A stretch of 7,195 bases of DNA, taken from contig CAMWWS010000134.1 of NCBI GenBank assembly GCA_947178085.1, positions 1 to 7,195 of the forward strand, in the 5' to 3' direction. The notes below the pieces were generated by a model. That model worked only from the letters and a program-made list of their open reading frames with translations, made no database searches and was not told the origin of the DNA. How positions within the stretch are numbered: position 1 is the first letter of the stretch; every line of letters begins with the position of its first letter. Source of the stretch: an uncultured Lachnospiraceae bacterium (GTDB lineage: Bacteria > Bacillota_A > Clostridia > Lachnospirales > Lachnospiraceae). This document shows positions 1-7,195 of this stretch, in pieces. The translations under genes and the position numbers were made by a program.

Positions 1-71
1 ATCTGATATATAACACATAATCCATAATTTGGTCAAGATAAGTCCTGTACAAAATGCAATAATTTTCCTAT

Positions 72-103
72 TAAAAGAGGTCATAGCCGAAACCATGACC
101 TCT
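72..103 (-). terminator. Rho-independent terminator of the sigma/ABC operon
   Basis: In the minus-strand transcript, AGAGGTCAT (103-95) pairs perfectly with ATGACCTCT (84-76) across a 10-nt loop and is followed by TTTTAA, a short U-tract. It begins 18 nt after the permease stop codon, where an operon terminator is expected. The U-tract is short, so termination may be partial. I see no gene or recognisable signal in bases 1-71 beyond it. Confidence 0.75.
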
Positions 104-121
104 GAATCTTTAGTATTCTTA

Positions 122-1378
122 TTATGATATTCTATGAACCACATATGTTCGGACAGACATAATTGAAAAAACGACCATTTCCACCGCCGCAAATCCTACC
201 ATAGCGTAAGGCGTCCAGACCGCCAGATTTCCAAGCGTCAGAAACTCATAATCAATTACGGAATATAAAAAACTGCTCATCATGCCCAGTCCGCCCGACG
301 GAAGCACGCATCTTAACCATAATCCCGGCTTAAAGGAATCCGGAATCGACATATAAATAAAAATCGGTGCAAAGCACATAACCAGCCCTATTGACAGGGA
401 TGTAATCACATTCCTGCATCTGGAAGAAAGGAAAGCGGTAAAACATACCGTAGCAATTACCGTCAGTAACCCTGCAAGCATAACTGCCAGCTGTAATTCT
501 CCCATATTCCAATTTGCCAGACTTGTAACCGAGTACTCTACCTGTATAGAGGTTTTGGTACACTCCCATCCGAATAAACTGTTGGAAAGTAAAAGATAAA
601 TCGTCATGCAGACGGTAAACAAAATACCTGAAATGCCTGCTGCCGTAACAGTTTTGGATATACCCAGACGCATGCGTCCATGTCTGGTACAGCGCAGAAT
701 ATCATCAGCTCCCGTTTGATAATCTGATGAAAAAGCCGGCGCCGCAATCACGGTACAGAACAGAAGTAACAGCATTGCCAGAAGCAGCTCATAGTCCATT
801 GCGTCTTTATTATATCCCGGATAATATAAATAAGGCTTTTCCACATTTTGGTAACTATCATGCATAAACTGTCTGGCTGCCTGACTGTTTTTTTGTTCAA
901 TTTCTCCCAGTGCAATAATCCGTTCATTGCAGGCCTCGTAGAAATTATCAACCTGCTCCGGTAAAATATCCGTAACCGCCGGCGCCATACCTGTTTTACG
1001 GTCGGATAAAGCTTCCCGTATTCTTGGTATCAACGGGTAAATCGGTAAAATCCGCTTTTCATAAACATCTCCTGTAAGTTCCCATATTCCCTCTGCATTA
1101 TATTCCCGCAGGCACGCCTGACATTCTTCCAATGCATGCCGCATAATTTCCGGCGTCAATTCCCCTTTTATGTCTTCCTGCAATATTTTTGTATACCGGA
1201 TCGCGTCCAAACCTTTCAGAGACGCTACTTTATTTCCTGCTTCATCATACTGACTTACAGATACGAAAGTTACCGGAAGATAAGCCATAAGTACGCTCAT
1301 AAAAAGCGATATCGCAATCAGAATTATTGTCCTGCGCGACTTTAAAATCTTTTTTAATTCTAAACTAAATACTCTCAT
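122..1378 (-). CDS. ABC-2-like transporter permease with large extracytoplasmic loop
   Basis: This 418-residue integral membrane protein is probably the membrane-spanning half of an ABC exporter driven by the ATPase encoded just upstream. About six hydrophobic helices are visible: 17-38, 196-216, 243-266, 297-318, 322-344 and 390-408. Between helices 1 and 2 lies a hydrophilic stretch of about 155 residues (39-195), predicted to be outside the membrane. The segment after helix 2 (FSSDYQTGADDILRCTRHGR, 216-235) resembles the coupling region of ABC-2 permeases, where an acidic residue and a TG/GR pattern precede the next helix. Its Shine-Dalgarno AAAGGAG (1397-1391) is formed by the last codons of the ATPase gene, and only 7 nt separate the ATPase stop from this ATG, so the two are probably translationally coupled. 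A terminator follows at 103-72. The substrate cannot be told from sequence; antimicrobial peptides or drugs are typical for such pairs. Membership of the ABC-2 superfamily is well supported, the exact subfamily is not. Confidence 0.85.
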   Translation of the reverse strand: MRVFSLELKKILKSRRTIILIAISLFMSVLMAYLPVTFVSVSQYDEAGNKVASLKGLDAIRYTKILQEDIKGELTPEIMRHALEECQACLREYNAEGIWELTGDVYEKRILPIYPLIPRIREALSDRKTGMAPAVTDILPEQVDNFYEACNERIIALGEIEQKNSQAARQFMHDSYQNVEKPYLYYPGYNKDAMDYELLLAMLLLLFCTVIAAPAFSSDYQTGADDILRCTRHGRMRLGISKTVTAAGISGILFTVCMTIYLLLSNSLFGWECTKTSIQVEYSVTSLANWNMGELQLAVMLAGLLTVIATVCFTAFLSSRCRNVITSLSIGLVMCFAPIFIYMSIPDSFKPGLWLRCVLPSGGLGMMSSFLYSVIDYEFLTLGNLAVWTPYAMVGFAAVEMVVFSIMSVRTYVVHRIS

Positions 1379-1385
1379 TTTCTTT

Positions 1386-2273
1386 TTATACTCCTTTCAG
1401 TGCCTCAGGAAACATCCACAGATACATATCCTCCAACCGCGCTTTTTCCTGTGTGGAATGTATCAGGCCGTCTGCAATCGGTTCCTCTGCCAGATACCGA
1501 ATAGATGCATAATCTGCATTTTCATTCTTTAAGTTGACTATTTTCAGGATTCTCTCATATTTCGGCAGTTCGGAAACCGGAATCATACAGCTCCATACTT
1601 TACCTTCCACCAGCCTGACTAATTCCTCTGTCGTTCCTGTTGCGACAAATTTACCGTTTTTCATTACAGCATTGCGCGTTGCTATATATTCTACGTCCGG
1701 TACAATATGTGTGGAAATAAGTACGATGCGCTCCTTGGCAAACTCTGAGAGCAGATTTCGAAAACGTACACGCTCGCCGGGGTCCAGTCCGCTTGTAGGC
1801 TCATCCAAAAGCAAAACCTCCGGCTCGTTCAACAATGCCTGTGCAATACCGACGCGGCGTTTCATACCGCCGGACAGTTTCACTATCTTTTTATTTCTCA
1901 CATCATATAAGGTCAGTTTTTCCAGCAGTTCTTCAAGTTTTCGCTTTGTATCTTTTACACTCAGGCCTTTTAGCGCAGCGACATATTCCAAATAGTCCAC
2001 TACCGTAAATTCAGGATAAAAACCAAATTCCTGCGGCAGGTAGCCGAAAATATCCCGGTATGCTTCTTTCAATACATCTATTGGCACGCCGTTGTATAAA
2101 ATTCTGCCGGAATCAGGTTTCATAATTCCTGCCACTATACGCATCAGGGTTGTTTTTCCTGCTCCGTTAGCGCCGAGCAGGCCCCAGACGCCCGGTGTGA
2201 TGCATAGGGAGACGTCGTCTACGGCTTTTTTGTCTTTATAATATTTTGCGATGTTTTCTATTACTAGTTCCAT
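1386..2273 (-). CDS. ABC transporter ATP-binding protein
   Basis: This cytoplasmic ATPase subunit of an ABC exporter (295 residues from the chosen start) should power the permease encoded immediately downstream. All nucleotide-binding motifs are intact: Walker A GANGAGKT (34-41), Q-loop in YLPQEFGFYPEFT (Q81), signature LSGGM (133-137), Walker B LLLDEPTSGLD (154-164) and the H-loop histidine in ISTH (H189). The Q-loop region and the LKG motif after it are typical of the drug-resistance/antibiotic-export group of ABC-2-coupled ATPases. About 80 residues follow the ATPase core, as is common in that group. An upstream in-frame ATG at 2282 would add MKL, but the Shine-Dalgarno AGAAAGG touches that ATG and sits 9 nt before the ATG at 2273, so 2273 is preferred. 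The gene is separated from the sigma/membrane pair by a palindromic repeat but shares their strand, and no independent promoter is evident. Function as an ABC ATPase is near certain; the substrate is unknown. Confidence 0.93.
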   Translation of the reverse strand: MELVIENIAKYYKDKKAVDDVSLCITPGVWGLLGANGAGKTTLMRIVAGIMKPDSGRILYNGVPIDVLKEAYRDIFGYLPQEFGFYPEFTVVDYLEYVAALKGLSVKDTKRKLEELLEKLTLYDVRNKKIVKLSGGMKRRVGIAQALLNEPEVLLLDEPTSGLDPGERVRFRNLLSEFAKERIVLISTHIVPDVEYIATRNAVMKNGKFVATGTTEELVRLVEGKVWSCMIPVSELPKYERILKIVNLKNENADYASIRYLAEEPIADGLIHSTQEKARLEDMYLWMFPEALKGV

Positions 2274-2282
2274 GAGTTTCAT

Positions 2283-2289
2283 CCTTTCT
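2283..2289 (-). promoter_or_regulatory. Ribosome binding site deciding the ABC ATPase start
   Basis: AGAAAGG on the minus strand lies directly against the ATG at 2282 (no spacing) but 9 nt before the in-frame ATG at 2273. Normal Shine-Dalgarno spacing therefore selects the second ATG. The site lies outside the palindromic repeat that ends at 2303, so the repeat does not remove it, although a large RNA hairpin would form about 13 nt upstream. Confidence 0.6.
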
Positions 2290-2302
2290 TAAGCTAAATA
2301 TA

Positions 2303-2511
2303 TAGGTTTTTGTGAAACTAACTTTTTCAAATAGTCCGTTGCACAATATATACAAATCAACGCAGGCACGCTTGCGCTGCATTGCCGCCAGTAGCGGTAC
2401 ATAAGGTGCCAAAATACGGCACCTAAGTACCGACGGCGGCAGAGCACCTGCTTATGTTTTGTATATATTGCGCAACTACATTTTGGAAATAGGGAGGTTC
2501 GCAATTACCTA
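2303..2511. repeat. 209-bp imperfect palindrome, MITE-like intergenic repeat
   Basis: The two halves of this stretch are reverse complements of each other over about 100 bp each. The best arm segments are GTTGCACAATATATACAAA (2338-2356) against its complement at 2458-2476 (18 of 19), TGCCGCC (2383-2389) with GGCGGCA (2435-2441), GGTAC (2396-2400) with GTACC (2427-2431), and AGGTGCC (2404-2410) with GGCACCT (2418-2424) around a 7-nt loop AAAATAC. Complementarity decays outward but can be followed to TAGG (2303) and CCTA (2508-2511). The left arm carries extra bases (2357-2382) that form a small side stem, and the right arm has its own AGCA-CC-TGCT. In RNA this would make one long branched hairpin. 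It fills almost the whole gap between the membrane protein gene and the ABC genes. No transposase lies inside and no clear target duplication is visible. A small reading frame across it is a by-product of the palindrome. Calling it mobile is inference, because copy number cannot be seen here. Confidence 0.8.
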
Positions 2512-2549
2512 ACTAACATAGAGTGCTGAAATCGTCCATGCAGGAGGGG

Positions 2550-3335
2550 TCATGCGATTTGGGCATATGCTGAACGATACATTATATAGCGGAGCTGTTT
2601 GATGCTAAAAAGCACTAACAGGAAACACACGAGCAGCCAGCCGGCTGAAAATGTCTGTCGGAAAAAATTTGAATGAAATCGGCTGAGTATTGTAAATGCT
2701 GTAAGCATCAGACAGCACAGTCCTACGCTGTATACTTCGAACTTATCCGCCGGAATATGTCCTAACAGGTACAGGAAGCCGCAGCATGCCGATAAATACG
2801 GCAGCAACAGATAAAGCAGAACACTTTCCGATTTCAAAGAAGTATTCGCTATCGTAAGCAGGAAAATTGTACTCAGCATAACAAGGTTTCCTATGCCGAT
2901 AAGAAGCAGTTTGGCAAGCAGTAATTTTACAGAGCTGAAACGGGTTGACAGTTCAATCTCATGCATTTTGTATCGGATAGAACGATGAATCATCGGCACG
3001 GAGGAAAGTAAAACGAGCACCGACAGGCAGCACAGCAGGAATGCTATTCCTTTCACACTATCTACTAAATAAAAATTCAACGGTCCGTTAAATGCCATAC
3101 ACAACATAATAAGCGCAGTACCCTGCATAAGCCAGATCGGCCAGCCGATAAAACGCAGCTGTCGCTTTAAAAATTCAGGATAGTTTATCCGTCTGCGTTT
3201 ACGTTTCTCTTCTAACAGCGGTTCCACGTTCCTACTAATCTGATTTATCTGCTCCCGATTTACCGGTTCTATCTGCATGGGCAGCATCTCTTTTAGCTGT
3301 TTGTTTATTGATGAATTACTCTGTTTTTTATTCAT
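2550..3335 (-). CDS. Six-helix membrane protein, candidate membrane anti-sigma or accessory subunit
   Basis: I do not recognise a named family. The 261-residue product has a cytoplasmic N-terminal region of about 60 residues, rich in charge and ending in a basic KRKRRR patch (44-49), then about six hydrophobic helices at 63-83, 95-114, 138-163, 171-192, 200-218 and 229-246. It starts 4 nt after the stop of the sigma factor gene. An upstream in-frame ATG would overlap that gene by 32 nt, but the Shine-Dalgarno AAGGAGG (3355-3349) fits the ATG at 3335 (13-nt spacing). Position directly after an ECF sigma gene is where membrane anti-sigma factors are usually encoded, and the soluble N-terminus could bind sigma. 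The zinc-binding HxxxCxxC motif of classic anti-sigma factors is absent. The stretch MHEIELSTRFSSVKLLLAK (124-142) also recalls the coupling segment of ABC-2 permeases, so an accessory transporter subunit is a real alternative. The role is inferred from context only. Confidence 0.8.
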   Translation of the reverse strand: MNKKQSNSSINKQLKEMLPMQIEPVNREQINQISRNVEPLLEEKRKRRRINYPEFLKRQLRFIGWPIWLMQGTALIMLCMAFNGPLNFYLVDSVKGIAFLLCCLSVLVLLSSVPMIHRSIRYKMHEIELSTRFSSVKLLLAKLLLIGIGNLVMLSTIFLLTIANTSLKSESVLLYLLLPYLSACCGFLYLLGHIPADKFEVYSVGLCCLMLTAFTILSRFHSNFFRQTFSAGWLLVCFLLVLFSIKQLRYIMYRSAYAQIA

Positions 3336-3339
3336 GATT

Positions 3340-3885
3340 TCAAATGTGCCTCCTTTCAATTTTTTCTCCACTCAATTTTTTCTTTAATTTTTTCAGAGCA
3401 GACCGCAGTCTGGACTGCACAGTCCGCATGGGAAGATTGACGATTTGCGCAATCTCTCTCATAGACAATTCCTGCACATACCGCAAAATAACAATTTCAT
3501 GTAATTCCTCCGGCAGGCTGTCCGTCATCTGTCGAAATTGTAAATTTTCGTCAACTTCGTCGAATCCGTTCTCGCGGTATGCGGTCTCTTCCGGTAATTG
3601 TTCCAGCGAAACGTCTGTCGTCCATTTCCTGCGTTTCATATCAACACAGGTATTTAATGCAATCTGATAAAGAAAAGCTTTAAACTTTCCCTTATGGACA
3701 TAGTGGTCAAAATAACGTATCGCCTTCAGGAATGTTTCCTGCGCCGCATCTTCCGCCAAATGTCTATTCGGGGCATTCCAGATACAGTAACGTAATATCT
3801 CAGGATAATACATTTCTATCAGTTCGTCTGCAGCTCCGGTATCGCCCTGCTCCATTCTTTTGATTAGTTCATCTTCACGCGTCAA
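3340..3885 (-). CDS. ECF-type RNA polymerase sigma factor
   Basis: This 181-residue sigma-70 family protein of the extracytoplasmic function class should direct RNA polymerase to a small set of promoters, often including its own. Region 2 spans about residues 12-85, with the conserved DAAQETFLKAI stretch (46-56) for core binding and -10 recognition and NTCVDMKRRK (78-87) near its end. After a variable linker (88-117), region 4 spans about 118-168 with the helix-turn-helix LSMREIAQIVNLPMRTVQSR (140-159) that reads the -35 element. A basic tail (KKLKKKLSGEKIERR) follows. There is no region 1.1 or 3, as expected for the class. The start codon is TTG (3885-3883): the Shine-Dalgarno AGGAGG lies 8 nt before it, and the first ATG, at codon 11, has no such site. 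It heads an operon with a membrane protein (4-nt gap) and an ABC exporter, suggesting a cell-envelope or peptide stress response. Assignment to a numbered ECF group cannot be made by eye. Confidence 0.92.
   Translation of the reverse strand: MTREDELIKRMEQGDTGAADELIEMYYPEILRYCIWNAPNRHLAEDAAQETFLKAIRYFDHYVHKGKFKAFLYQIALNTCVDMKRRKWTTDVSLEQLPEETAYRENGFDEVDENLQFRQMTDSLPEELHEIVILRYVQELSMREIAQIVNLPMRTVQSRLRSALKKLKKKLSGEKIERRHI
3349..3355 (-). promoter_or_regulatory. Ribosome binding site of the membrane protein, inside the sigma gene
   Basis: AAGGAGG on the minus strand lies within the last codons of the sigma factor gene and 13 nt before the ATG at 3335. It supports that start over the earlier in-frame ATG near 3371, which has no such site at proper distance, and implies translational coupling with the sigma gene. 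Confidence 0.65.
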
Positions 3886-3893
3886 GATTATTT

Positions 3894-3899
3894 CCTCCT
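3894..3899 (-). promoter_or_regulatory. Ribosome binding site for the TTG-initiated sigma gene
   Basis: AGGAGG on the minus strand lies 8 nt upstream of TTG (3885-3883). A perfect site at ideal spacing decides the TTG start for the sigma factor. A strong site paired with a weak start codon may keep sigma output low. Confidence 0.75.
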
Positions 3900-3937
3900 G
3901 GTATATATAACGGATGGGGATGAGGGGAATGATTTGA

Positions 3938-3978
3938 TTTTTTAATTTTTTTGCTTTTTTAGCTTTTTTTGACCTTTT
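3938..3978. other. Phased T/A-tract array between divergent promoters
   Basis: Five T-runs follow each other on the plus strand: 3938-3943, 3946-3952, 3955-3960, 3964-3970 and 3975-3978, with centres about 8.5 to 9.5 bp apart. A-tracts repeated close to the helical period bend DNA and can act as UP elements for the polymerase alpha subunit. The array lies just upstream of the rightward promoter and inside the leader of the leftward operon. The pattern is seen; the function is inferred. Confidence 0.5.
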
Positions 3979-3979
3979 A

Positions 3980-4008
3980 TTGATATATTATAAACGTAGT
4001 TGTAAAAT
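3980..4008 (+). promoter_or_regulatory. Sigma-A-type promoter for the split helicase gene
   Basis: TTGATA (3980-3985) and TAAAAT (4003-4008) each match the vegetative consensus at five of six bases and are separated by exactly 17 bp. Transcription would start near 4015, giving a leader of about 40 nt. T-tracts lie immediately upstream and may act as an UP element. This is the best promoter I can find in the window. Confidence 0.6.
3987..3992 (-). promoter_or_regulatory. Possible -10 element of the sigma/ABC operon
   Basis: On the minus strand this reads TATAAT, a perfect vegetative -10 hexamer, preceded by GTT. No convincing -35 hexamer lies 16-18 bp upstream of it. If used, transcription starts near 3980 and the leader is about 95 nt, containing the A-tracts and a C-rich stretch before the ribosome site. 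It overlaps the rightward promoter, so the two could compete. An autoregulatory ECF promoter may exist instead but cannot be recognised without its consensus. Confidence 0.3.
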
Positions 4009-4056
4009 AGTTGTTGTGAGATAATTATTTATTTTTTAGTATACAGGATGAAGACT

Positions 4057-5496
4057 ATGAACACAATTTTACGCGATATATTCCGTGCTATTCATGAAGG
4101 AAAATGGATAAGCATTGAATATCATAACAAAGAAGAACAGAATACAAAATACTGGATAGGAATCCGTAATATAGACGTGCGCAACCGTACTCTTGCGGTA
4201 GAAGGTTTTCATCTGGGTTTATATACGGTAGAATCTTTTGACCGAATAAAGATTGATTCAATTCAGTCATCACGGATTATAGAAGGCTCTTTTTATCCTG
4301 TCAACGAATCTCTGGTTAATGATATTTATTTAAATCCTCATAAATATCTCACTATTTTTGACAATACGGCAAATTTAAAAATACTCGGGTATCTCGAGAT
4401 GTGTAACCGCCTCGATTCAGTACCGTACAAGTCTGATTTCAATTTAGTCCGGTATTTGGACCACGACAATATTGCCGGTGAACTGTATCAGTTAAATCCG
4501 CAGCAGTTTCAGGAAATTGTTAAGAATTTTCAGTATCAGACAGAAAATAACGAACGTACAGACGGAAGTCTGCATATAAAGCAGCTTGCAATGAACGTCC
4601 TCAGCATCCATATGGCTAAAGCATTGTATGTACTGGCTTATCGTAAGCTGAATTTAGATGTGAAACAGCGCGCATTAAAACCGGATGATGAAATCACTAT
4701 CTGCACGGAGTTCACCATAGACGGAACGAAACAAAGTATACGCAGATTTTTAGATGGGGATGAATATGAGCTCCTCTCTGATTTTGAAGCGAATCAGGAA
4801 AAAATCAAAGACTGTATTACAAGGCATATGCAGCGCGGCAACGGCAACGTTGACGATATGCCGTATATTATAGGCTTAGAGACAGATATCGCATTAGATT
4901 TACACAAAGAATATCAGTCTATTATAAAAATATATAAAGAAGAAAAAGTTCCGGTACCGCTTAAAGCTTTTTTCGGGGATTTACTTGAACATCCAAGAAA
5001 TAACCACTCTCGTCCGATTATATTAATCAATCAAAAAATTAATATGGATCAATTACTCGCTATCCATAACGCCATGAAATATCCTGTGGCATATATTCAG
5101 GGACCTCCCGGAACCGGAAAAACAAATACAATCATCAATACGATCGTAACGGCTTTTTTTAATGAACGTACAGTATTGTTTACATCTTACAACAATCATC
5201 CGATTAACAATGTATATGAGAAATTGTCTTCTTTGAAATATAAAGAAAAGACTATTCCGTTTCCGATACTTCGTCTGGGAAATAATGAAAAAGTCAAAGA
5301 AGCATTAGATACAATAAAAAAACTCTATGAGAGCGTACAGAGTGTGCAGGTATTTGAACGTACTTTAGACCGTAACAAAGATGACAGGAAGAAACGGGCA
5401 AAACGATTATCCGAAATGTTAAGAAGATATGAGGACCTTTTAGATTTAAGGGAACGTGAAGAAACTATTAATCGAATGCTTGATTTTGAGAAGTAA
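4057..5496 (+). CDS. N-terminal half of split SF1 helicase: WYL-like domain plus Walker A
   Basis: This is the first part of a superfamily 1 helicase of the Upf1/DNA2 type, ended by an in-frame TAA. From the start at 4057 (479 residues), residues 5-80 look like a WYL-type small-barrel domain, which in other proteins senses nucleic acid or nucleotide ligands. Residues 80-320 are not recognised. Then come a Q-motif (LINQKINMDQLLAIHNAM, Q332), Walker A GPPGTGKT (349-356) and motif Ia (VLFTSYNNHPINNV, 373-386). A charged, probably coiled-coil stretch (430-479) is cut by the stop. Motifs II to VI are missing here and occur in the next reading frame, in the same phase. The ATG at 4048 is also in frame, but the AGGA at 4045-4048 abuts it and sits 8 nt before 4057, so 4057 is preferred. 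Alone it could bind but probably not hydrolyse ATP. It is either a broken gene or one subunit of a two-piece enzyme. Confidence 0.82.
   Translation: MNTILRDIFRAIHEGKWISIEYHNKEEQNTKYWIGIRNIDVRNRTLAVEGFHLGLYTVESFDRIKIDSIQSSRIIEGSFYPVNESLVNDIYLNPHKYLTIFDNTANLKILGYLEMCNRLDSVPYKSDFNLVRYLDHDNIAGELYQLNPQQFQEIVKNFQYQTENNERTDGSLHIKQLAMNVLSIHMAKALYVLAYRKLNLDVKQRALKPDDEITICTEFTIDGTKQSIRRFLDGDEYELLSDFEANQEKIKDCITRHMQRGNGNVDDMPYIIGLETDIALDLHKEYQSIIKIYKEEKVPVPLKAFFGDLLEHPRNNHSRPIILINQKINMDQLLAIHNAMKYPVAYIQGPPGTGKTNTIINTIVTAFFNERTVLFTSYNNHPINNVYEKLSSLKYKEKTIPFPILRLGNNEKVKEALDTIKKLYESVQSVQVFERTLDRNKDDRKKRAKRLSEMLRRYEDLLDLREREETINRMLDFEK
5494..5496 (+). other. In-frame TAA dividing the helicase gene
   Basis: The codons run GAG AAG TAA AAG GGC GCG TCT GTT GAG ATG ATG, and the frame before the stop (4057-5493) is the same as that after it (5497-7095). 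There is no frameshift, and no second stop occurs in over 3 kb. A single base change from CAA, GAA or AAA would produce it. It falls in the linker between motif Ia and motif II of the helicase, in a charged coiled-coil-like region. Confidence 0.9.
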
Positions 5497-5514
5497 AAGG
5501 GCGCGTCTGTTGAG

Positions 5515-7095
5515 ATGATGTCTTTTGAGGAAGATCTGGCAACAAGACAACGCAGTCAAATCAGCAAAAAGATAAACGAAACAGGTACAGTTTCCGAAAA
5601 AGATGCTATATCACTTCTGGATGATGATATAGAAGAATTGAAGAAATATCTATATTTTACTTCTGCCGGTTATATTAAAAAAATCGGTATGCCGAGATAT
5701 TCAGACTTAAGAGACATTTTAGAAATTGAAGACAGTAAAAAGCAGGTAGAAGCTTTCTCAAAATATTTAGGCGAGAAAGATAATATTTTAAAACTGCAGA
5801 AAATTTTCCCTATAATAGTCACGACATGTATTTCAGCGCATCGTCTGGGAGAGCCTGTACCGATGTTTGATATGGTCATAATGGATGAAGCAAGTCAATG
5901 TAATGTTGCTATGTCTTTAGTACCGATTGTGAGGGGCGATAATCTTATGCTTGTCGGAGACCCTCAACAACTCAATCCGGTCATCCTGCTGGACGAATTG
6001 ACTAACGTAAAACTGAAGAAACGCTATATGATTTCTGATGAATATGATTATCGTAAGAATTCCATTTCTAAGACTTATCTTTCAAGCGACGCTGTCAGTG
6101 ATGAAACTTTACTTCATAATCACTACCGCTGCCACAAGCGCATTATAGAATTTAATAATCGGAAATATTATAATTCGCGTCTCAACATTGTATCAGAGAG
6201 CAAAGAAGAACAGCCTCTTGTATATATGGATATGGGCGAAGCCATTACAGATTATAAGAATACCGCTCCGTCAGAAGCCCGTGAGATAGCAAAGTACGCC
6301 GCACTGAACAGGGATAAAAATATCGGAGTCATTACCCCTTTTGTAAACCAGAAGAAGCTGATTGAGGAAGAACTGCAACGCGCTAAGGTATCAAACGTTA
6401 CCTGCGGAACCGTACATGCTTTTCAAGGTGACGAGAAAGATATAATTTTGTTTTCTACGGCTATTACTAATCAAACGCAGGCAGGCACCTATGAATGGCT
6501 GAAGAATAACAAGGAATTGATTAACGTAGCGACTTCAAGGGCTAAGGACAAGCTTATCATATTGTCCAGCAGTAAGAATTTAGAACGTCTGCACCAAAAA
6601 GACGGCGAAGATGATTTATATGAGCTTGCGCAGTATGTACGCTCTAACGGAACGTCTGTGGTAACGCCAAAACAGGCAGCATCCAGAGCTTTGGGCGTAA
6701 AACCATTCAGCAGTGTTACGGAGGAGGCTTTTTTAGAGAATCTCAACCATGCGCTGGAAAATATATGGCTTACACAGAGCCGTTATGTTGTACATAAAGA
6801 AGTCGCCATATCTCATGTATTTGACGGAAATGAAAGTTACAACGACTTATTTTATAACGGCAGATTTGACTTCGTGGTATATGAAAAAATCGGAAAGCAG
6901 GAAAATGCCATTTTGGCAATAGAGCTTGACGGCAAAGAACATTATGACAATGAAGTGGTGATTAACAGGGATAAGAAGAAAAATGCTATTTGCAGTGAGC
7001 ATAATCTGCAATTAATCAGGGTGGAGAATTCGTATGCCAGAAGGTATAATCATATAAAGGAGATTTTGATTAATTATTTCTCGGTTGGGCATTGA
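5515..7095 (+). CDS. C-terminal half of split SF1 helicase with DUF2726-like nuclease domain
   Basis: This 526-residue frame completes the helicase begun upstream. Visible motifs: TTCISAHR (103-110), motif II with Walker B acid MDEAS (123-127), motif III VGDPQQLNP (147-155), HYRCH (203-207), VITPFVNQ (272-279), motif V GTVHAFQGDEKDIILFS (298-314) and motif VI NVATSRAKDKLII (337-349), which supplies the arginine finger. These are the hallmarks of Upf1/DNA2-type helicases (AAA_11/AAA_12). A linker leads to a C-terminal domain (about 400-526) resembling DUF2726, a PD-(D/E)XK-like nuclease fold: RFDFVV (D452), AIELDGKEHY (E470, D472, K474) and NRDKKKN (D486), then a LIRV strand. It lacks Walker A, so it cannot be an ATPase alone. 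The first ATG after the stop is at 5515; the only Shine-Dalgarno-like site, AAAAGGG (5495-5501), is 13 nt away, so restart would be weak. No further lesion is seen. It may be a subunit or the remains of one protein of about 1010 residues. Confidence 0.82.
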   Translation: MMSFEEDLATRQRSQISKKINETGTVSEKDAISLLDDDIEELKKYLYFTSAGYIKKIGMPRYSDLRDILEIEDSKKQVEAFSKYLGEKDNILKLQKIFPIIVTTCISAHRLGEPVPMFDMVIMDEASQCNVAMSLVPIVRGDNLMLVGDPQQLNPVILLDELTNVKLKKRYMISDEYDYRKNSISKTYLSSDAVSDETLLHNHYRCHKRIIEFNNRKYYNSRLNIVSESKEEQPLVYMDMGEAITDYKNTAPSEAREIAKYAALNRDKNIGVITPFVNQKKLIEEELQRAKVSNVTCGTVHAFQGDEKDIILFSTAITNQTQAGTYEWLKNNKELINVATSRAKDKLIILSSSKNLERLHQKDGEDDLYELAQYVRSNGTSVVTPKQAASRALGVKPFSSVTEEAFLENLNHALENIWLTQSRYVVHKEVAISHVFDGNESYNDLFYNGRFDFVVYEKIGKQENAILAIELDGKEHYDNEVVINRDKKKNAICSEHNLQLIRVENSYARRYNHIKEILINYFSVGH

Positions 7096-7101
7096 AAAAT
7101 C

Positions 7102-7134
7102 GCCTCGTATTAATAAGAATGATTAATGCGAGGC
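7102..7134 (-). terminator. Hairpin with T-tract facing the minus strand
   Basis: GCCTCGTATTAAT (7102-7114) pairs with ATTAATGCGAGGC (7122-7134) across a 7-nt loop, 12 of 13 pairs plus one G-T position. On the minus strand the stem is followed by ATTTTT (7100-7095), making a standard terminator for a leftward transcript entering from beyond the window. On the plus strand the stem is followed by AACGTATGGG, with no U-tract. It begins 7 nt after the helicase stop, so it may still stop or stabilise that transcript. Confidence 0.6.
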
Positions 7135-7141
7135 AACGTAT

Positions 7142-7195
7142 GGGACTATCCTAAAGTTTGTGTAAACCTTCAAACTGATGTAAGATAAAATTACT
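7142..7195. mobile_element. Possible terminus of an IS256-like element, cut by window end
   Basis: The stretch GGGACTATCCTAAAGTTTG then TGTAAAC (7142-7167) resembles, from memory, the terminal inverted repeats of IS256-family elements in Clostridia, which contain a TTTGTGTAAA block after a short guanine-led end. Only about 54 bp are inside the window, no transposase reading frame is visible, and the other end is missing. If correct, the insertion lies directly after the hairpin behind the helicase gene. This is a tentative call. Confidence 0.3.

Follow-up and report, generated by a model that had tools for sequence, protein, structure and literature searches.

We analysed a stretch of 7,195 nucleotides from an uncultured Lachnospiraceae bacterium (contig CAMWWS010000134.1), which is called the window below. 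Positions 4057-7095 of its plus strand form a single reading frame that is broken by one stop at 5494-5496 (codon 480). Read across this stop, the family product has 1012 residues and joins a WYL-like domain, a helicase of the UPF1/DNA2 type and a C-terminal nuclease-like domain. The gene is accessory and mobile, and we tentatively favor the view that it serves defence. Its features are given below, with residues numbered across the stop and conservation counted over 99 aligned rows (the duplicates L121 and L123-L126 included).

4057-5496, plus strand: gene part 1, which ends at the internal stop in codon 480; this codon is open in the other 98 aligned rows.
5494-5496, plus strand: internal TAA stop, present in a single one of the 99 aligned rows.
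5497-7095, plus strand: gene part 2, in which an ATG at 5515 starts an open reading frame (ORF) of 526 residues.
4057-4311, plus strand: WYL domain, residues 1-85, from an AlphaFold2 model with matches to PDB structures and weak sequence matches.
4312-5016, plus strand: middle region, residues 86-320, with a predicted secondary structure of helix, five-strand barrel and helix.
5038-6654, plus strand: UPF1/IGHMBP2/DNA2-type superfamily 1 (SF1) helicase core, about residues 328-866, from its motifs and its best structural neighbours.
5101-5124, plus strand: Walker A motif GPPGTGKT, residues 349-356, the first seven residues each in 99 of 99 rows and T356 in 97.
5884-5895, plus strand: Walker B motif DEAS, residues 610-613, with D, E and A in 99 of 99 rows and S in 98.
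6712-7071, plus strand: DUF2726 nuclease domain of PD-(D/E)XK type, about residues 886-1005, above the Pfam cut-off for DUF2726.

The original prediction, made by a model from the letters alone, had described one frame running across an internal stop with WYL, helicase and nuclease parts, and the domain matches and invariant motifs confirmed this. It had also assigned the helicase to the Upf1/DNA2 type, in agreement with the motifs and the closest structural neighbours, which belong to that clade of SF1. A long helical insertion (about residues 430-580) lies within the helicase core and contains the codon-480 stop. The nuclease domain scored 33.3 bits against a Pfam DUF2726 cut-off of 24.7, and we take DUF2726 to have the PD-(D/E)XK fold. 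Residues E889, D938, E956, E961 and K975 are invariant in all 99 rows. Of the nuclease residues that had been predicted, D938 and E956 were borne out; K960 varies and is kept in 88 of the 99 rows.

The predicted structure of residues 1-85 consists of a helix and a five-strand barrel of the Sm-like kind. BrxR, CapW, PafBC and DriD have the same arrangement and were also its best PDB matches; the fold is that of a WYL domain, as had been proposed. The window member nevertheless scored 12.1 bits and missed the curated Pfam WYL cut-off of 21.8, and weak matches at E ≤ 1 were obtained for 14 of 60 members (best E 0.054). A viral fold library mainly yielded phage proteins of small size, of which several bore the name WYL. 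A PDB sequence search with residues 1-322 returned no relative (best E 0.63). No fold match was obtained for residues 86-320. The full-length model was poor overall (mean predicted local distance difference test 70.1, predicted template modelling score 0.41) and was used for the helicase core and its helical insertion only. Residues 148-258 have a predicted helix-barrel-helix arrangement, and structure comparisons hardly covered that part. From its position and predicted structure, the region of residues 86-320 is probably the helicase stalk together with domain 1B.

We compared the two parts of the gene with those of the closest relative (L001), which is 98% identical and occupies the same genome place, with window 1-7120 aligning at 90%. 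Before the stop there were 49 synonymous and 12 non-synonymous codon differences (non-synonymous rate dN 0.012, synonymous rate dS 0.205), and behind it 90 and 10 (dN 0.0095, dS 0.349). Judged from these codon differences, the stop is either very young or an error, because selection is not relaxed behind it. Since the stop cuts RecA domain 1, we took the window copy as disrupted, and the ATG at 5515 could be a restart for part 2. Intact copies, up to 98% identical, are known and are present in close relatives; no stop was found in 78 of the 80 relative stretches kept from genome_contigs. L034 and L066 have one internal stop each, at window-numbered residues 348 and 33, and as these sites differ from that of the window, gene loss through stops is recurrent. 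In the profile of genus genomes, the copy of G734 was in pieces. These broken copies, and a stop that the other 98 rows lack, would suit an explanation in which the window copy is a decaying, functionless pseudogene or the stop a sequencing error. We consider this very unlikely as an account of the locus, given the selection that persists behind the stop, and it is silent on the function of the family.

A protein search with the full frame (X at the stop position) gave 3159 proteins at E ≤ 0.001 among 7996 scored candidates. The 120 matches listed were 73-98% identical over the full length, had 994-1070 residues and carried helicase and DUF2726 in their precomputed Pfam lists. In genome_contigs, relatives were encoded on 143 stretches, of which 80 were kept, and their titles were mainly Lachnospiraceae or its genera. 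Amid these otherwise Lachnospiraceae-like titles, L017 was titled Spirochaetales and L035 Bacteroidales, which may reflect transfer across phyla or wrong binning. Presence was patchy. Within the genus of the closest relative, 19 of 60 genomes carried the gene (E ≤ 1e-40, one copy in pieces), and within the family 23 of 299 did (E ≤ 1e-100, three partial), with the centre genome counted in both tallies. At the phylum level 3 of 398 genomes matched, among them the centre genome and one with a distant helicase; of 79 genomes in the genus of G215, only the centre carried the gene. The N-terminal 322 residues were found in 2 of 299 family genomes, the centre included. A sister set, L191 and L192, comprises helicase-DUF2726 proteins of 893-925 residues on E. 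coli and Bacteroides plasmids. Behind the 893-residue member on the E. coli plasmid (L191:4693-7374) lie genes for a phosphoadenosine phosphosulfate reductase and a ParB-like protein.

The gene also changes its place. A search of G708 at E 1e-40 found no copy. Its DNA matches the left flank of the window at 89% as far as window base 3961 and, about 220 bases further along, the right flank as it stands in L001 (82% over 153 bases). With both flanks present and the gene missing, this close relative has an empty site. DNA homology to five relatives in other genome places (L002, L003, L006, L007 and L025) starts at window 3965-3976, ahead of a promoter-like pair, and ends at 7084-7095, and among 25 relatives the 3' flanks mostly diverge directly past the stop codon. 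Flanks were counted by pairs over 94 rows, after L121 and L123-L126 had been dropped as the same genomes as L009, L019, L024, L021 and L025; these pairs are not independent. At least one flank was common in 9 of 9 pairs that were at least 95% identical. Among pairs of 90-95%, the upstream flank was common in 6 of 14 and the downstream flank in 2 of 11, and neither was common in 7 of the 11 readable on both sides; at 85-90%, neither was common in 35 of 44 such pairs.

As a control we used recQ in the same genus. Of 22 recQ pairs at least 90% identical, all had a common upstream flank and 13 a common downstream flank, compared with 1 of 7 and 2 of 7 for the gene; at 80-90%, the counts were 11 of 47 and 6 of 47 for recQ against 4 of 66 and 1 of 66 for the gene. 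The pairs of this control are again not independent, and the two genes may differ in evolutionary rate. The peptidase beside the gene in L002 occurred in just 3 of 60 genomes and was unusable as a second housekeeping control. Across the 11 genomes that carry both, the identities of the gene and recQ were weakly correlated (r 0.39 over 55 pairs, not independent), and G721 and G737 were 86% identical in the gene and 64% in recQ. Such identities fit horizontal transfer. The patchy presence, the empty site and the changing flanks led us to reject a core housekeeping gene, and they bear out the earlier description of an accessory locus; no conserved core gene in a housekeeping context was found here.

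The gene changes place frequently. L127, a full-length relative (53% identical), lies directly behind baseplate genes on the contig of a contractile-tail phage; the contig encodes major head, tail sheath and baseplate proteins and ends with the gene. The site behind phage tail or baseplate genes is a usual place for cargo. These observations speak for a role in the biology of mobile elements, in which the helicase-nuclease would serve the spread of, or superinfection exclusion by, carrier elements such as prophages. We regard this as improbable, since in five loci the DNA common between places extends little beyond the promoter-like stretch and the coding region, no element ends were seen where the 3' flanks of the 25 relatives part, and no integrase or transposase was among the 25 of 113 neighbour families listed. 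The helicase-nuclease half matched 1096 plasmid and 9 phage records, all below 60% identity. A plasmid- or phage-borne family was rejected, as plasmids held no near DNA match and the N-terminal part was unmatched in both.

Outside the coding region, the following features were noted.

3980-4008, plus strand: promoter-like pair TTGATA, 17-nucleotide spacer, TAAAAT, agreeing with the consensus at 10 of 12 positions, where shuffled sequence would give 1.5 such sites.
7102-7134, no strand assigned: 13-bp hairpin of -18.4 kcal/mol (z -4.9) with no U tract behind it.
7142-7195, no strand assigned: putative terminus of an insertion sequence of the Mutator type, truncated at the window edge and 46 bases behind the gene.

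The strong hairpin is a terminator candidate in spite of the missing U tract, and Rfam gave no match. In L001, about 150 additional bases (L001:11616-11779) interrupt this hairpin; they have AAGAATCGTTA at both ends, as seen by eye, and resemble a tiny insertion element. The original prediction had pointed to a possible insertion sequence end behind the gene. We found that the 7142-7195 end, which we take to be IS256-like, recurs with 1-2 mismatches in 7 of 200 family genomes and precedes a Transposase_mut ORF in G110; it was absent from 7 close genomes and, as an exact pattern, from viral_contigs.

To the left of the gene, window 122-3885 encodes on its minus strand an ECF sigma factor, a membrane protein without a family match, an ABC ATPase and an ABC-2 permease, and looks like an ordinary regulated transporter set; the right side is beyond the window. 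Part of the 122-3885 segment occurs a second time in G001, where it lies at the end of a contig along with codons 1-111 of the gene. Palindromic stretches were seen by eye in about 200 bases (window 2305-2505) that lie between the genes of the ABC ATPase and the membrane protein. These bases are present in the window and L001 and missing from the relative L160, parts of them recur in L015 and L052, and they look like a small dispersed element.

Among the flanks of 95 loci (readable over at least 600 nucleotides upstream in 94 and downstream in 88), a recQ homologue adjoined the gene on the same strand within 1.5 kb in nine: downstream in L031, L043, L045, L052, L055, L059, L080 and L118, and upstream in L117. 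By a rough estimate rather than a statistical test, about 0.1 recQ neighbours would be expected by chance over 95 loci at about 3500 genes per genome. The full recQ domain set was confirmed for the neighbour in L043, and recQ lies 6-10 kb off in L002, L028 and L061. L043, L045, L052, L055 and L059 form one clade, behind a cyclophilin gene, and L031, L080 and the L117/L118 pair occupy other positions, so that at least four parts of the tree are represented. In the L117/L118 pair, recQ precedes the gene in one genome and follows it in the other. The further neighbours of L031, of L080 and of the L043/L045/L052 clade differ from one another. A search of 60 genus genomes at E 1e-150 found recQ in 33, of which 32 have a single copy. 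Whether it is an old linkage in few lines or a repeated arrival, the adjacency hints at a shared task and suggests that the gene product is a DNA2-like partner of RecQ.

DNA2 works with Sgs1/BLM, of the RecQ family, in end resection, and the helicase core here is of the DNA2/UPF1 kind. An accessory enzyme for DNA-end processing or fork repair, a bacterial counterpart of DNA2 working with RecQ, is therefore possible, though we give it less credence than defence: RecQ would unwind, the helicase-nuclease would trim the freed strand, and the WYL domain would hold single-stranded DNA (ssDNA). In 86 of the 95 loci, however, there is no recQ within 1.5 kb. Tree clustering of the recQ neighbour was weak (for five of the loci it needs 4 changes on the tree, as few in 39 of 500 shuffles), and the recQ of L117, only 40-47% identical to the other neighbours, may be a paralogue. 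A gene found in 1 of 79 genomes of one genus is also too patchy for general repair, and eukaryotic DNA2 has a nuclease of another family and another domain order and is not known to have a WYL domain. A bolder version, in which the family is a horizontally moving counterpart of the DNA2-RecQ resection machine that pairs with host RecQ, uses WYL as an ssDNA sensor and turns DNA-end processing into defence as a one-gene Lachnospiraceae module, appears unlikely to us.

Our preference for defence over repair with RecQ comes from its agreement with a helicase-nuclease that is encoded by a single gene of patchy presence, includes a WYL domain and has a phage-borne member. In our tentative reading, an accessory, horizontally moving, stand-alone gene combines a WYL sensor, a UPF1/DNA2-type translocase and a PD-(D/E)XK-type nuclease into a nucleic-acid-gated defence against phages or invading DNA. 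PafBC is said to be a third instance of a WYL protein that binds ssDNA. The other two are a Pif1 helicase and DriD, whose WYL domains bind ssDNA according to the passages of PMC9964779 that deal with them. By analogy with other WYL proteins, the WYL domain, either by itself or jointly with the barrel next to it, would first hold exposed single-stranded nucleic acid, for which phage replication intermediates or DNA ends are candidates. This binding would load or release the ATP-driven helicase; its motifs are present, and its activity is presumed from them. The motor would then feed the strand into the nuclease, which from its conserved residues would degrade it. A dedicated partner gene may be unneeded, judging from the absence of a conserved neighbour in most loci. 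In the strain of the window, with its gene interrupted, the defence pathway is probably off.

Several observations weigh against defence. The original prediction had proposed a search for enrichment near known defence genes, and the outcome was flat: 46 PADLOC families within 2.5 kb and 47 beyond 5.5 kb (140 proteins each at 1e-15, sampled from 390 near and 294 far), in a test that is coarse because it counts families and several families can match one protein. A defence island was thus rejected, and the neighbours do not establish the defence role that had been put forward. Among the 25 PADLOC families listed on each side, those near included single AbiD, type IIG and type I methylase and type IV enzyme matches, and those far included a single type II methyl-directed enzyme; the 25 of 113 near families listed were mainly ordinary host functions, with an N6 methylase twice. 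The PADLOC matches of the gene product itself lay mostly in the helicase, a part common to UPF1-type proteins at large. One of 32 relatives in viral_contigs was full-length; the others, 21-41% identical, covered only parts of the protein that begin no earlier than residue 225. Residues 1-322 matched no plasmid or phage record at E 1e-5. The recQ neighbours and the retention of at least one flank in every pair of 95% or more, by which movement is not extreme, count on the same side. A single-gene defence role is nevertheless plausible. If true, sensor, motor and nuclease in one chain would make a self-contained machine for sensing and cutting within a family that is common among gut bacteria, and the recurrent recQ adjacency makes the existence of a bacterial DNA2-RecQ-like pair directly testable.

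Finally, we compared the family with known systems. The nearest PADLOC models, which count in favour of defence, were Mokosh MkoA/MkoC, PDC-S37 and the Hhe proteins. Hhe carries a Vsr nuclease in the same chain as its helicase. The likeness to Hhe is a helicase match of 57 bits, compared with an NCBIfam cut-off of 2000, and the present gene has no DUF4011 match. ProA (NF058533) and PDC-S37 align with the second half of the helicase and the nuclease (model positions 1280-1683 with residues 581-989, and 916-1307 with 583-978), but their models have 1903 and 1550 positions, and the ProA score was 95.1 bits, with the halves scanned apart, against an equivalog cut-off of 1500 in NCBIfam. An intact member matched MkoA (E 4.8e-53) and MkoC (E 4.2e-49) best in PADLOC, over the helicase. 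A PLD-like domain is given for both Mokosh types in the passages of PMC10952713 concerned, whereas the window halves had no PLD match in Pfam at E ≤ 1, and WYL and DUF2726 are extra in the present family. Membership in Mokosh, Hhe or ProA was rejected, as cut-offs were missed or defining domains were lacking.

Other helicases share parts of the architecture. L191 and L192 have helicase and DUF2726, but the alignment of L191, at 28% identity, starts with the helicase at residue 318, and the roughly 170-180 residues ahead of it had no WYL match at E 0.05. CnuH of type III-B CoCoNuT systems, as described in passages of PMC11090510, has a UPF1-like helicase with a helical insertion past Walker A and a fused Vsr-like nuclease; CnuH occurs with McrBC-type CnuB/CnuC and has an N-terminal winged helix-turn-helix domain instead of WYL, and in that paper the term WYL occurs once, in a reference title. 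The thermophile Pif1 with a WYL domain likewise combines an SF1 helicase with ssDNA binding by WYL, but it belongs to the Pif1 branch, its WYL domain is C-terminal, and the passages of PMC9964779 describing it report no nuclease. Passages of PMC4012209 mention, in general terms, combinations of WYL domains and superfamily I helicases; therefore, the pair itself is not new. No WYL-UPF1-nuclease fusion was named in the literature found, and our description of it as unnamed draws on that together with PADLOC and NCBIfam. As no model in these two collections describes the entire family, it is a concrete one-gene defence candidate. In keeping with the original prediction, none of their models has this domain order.

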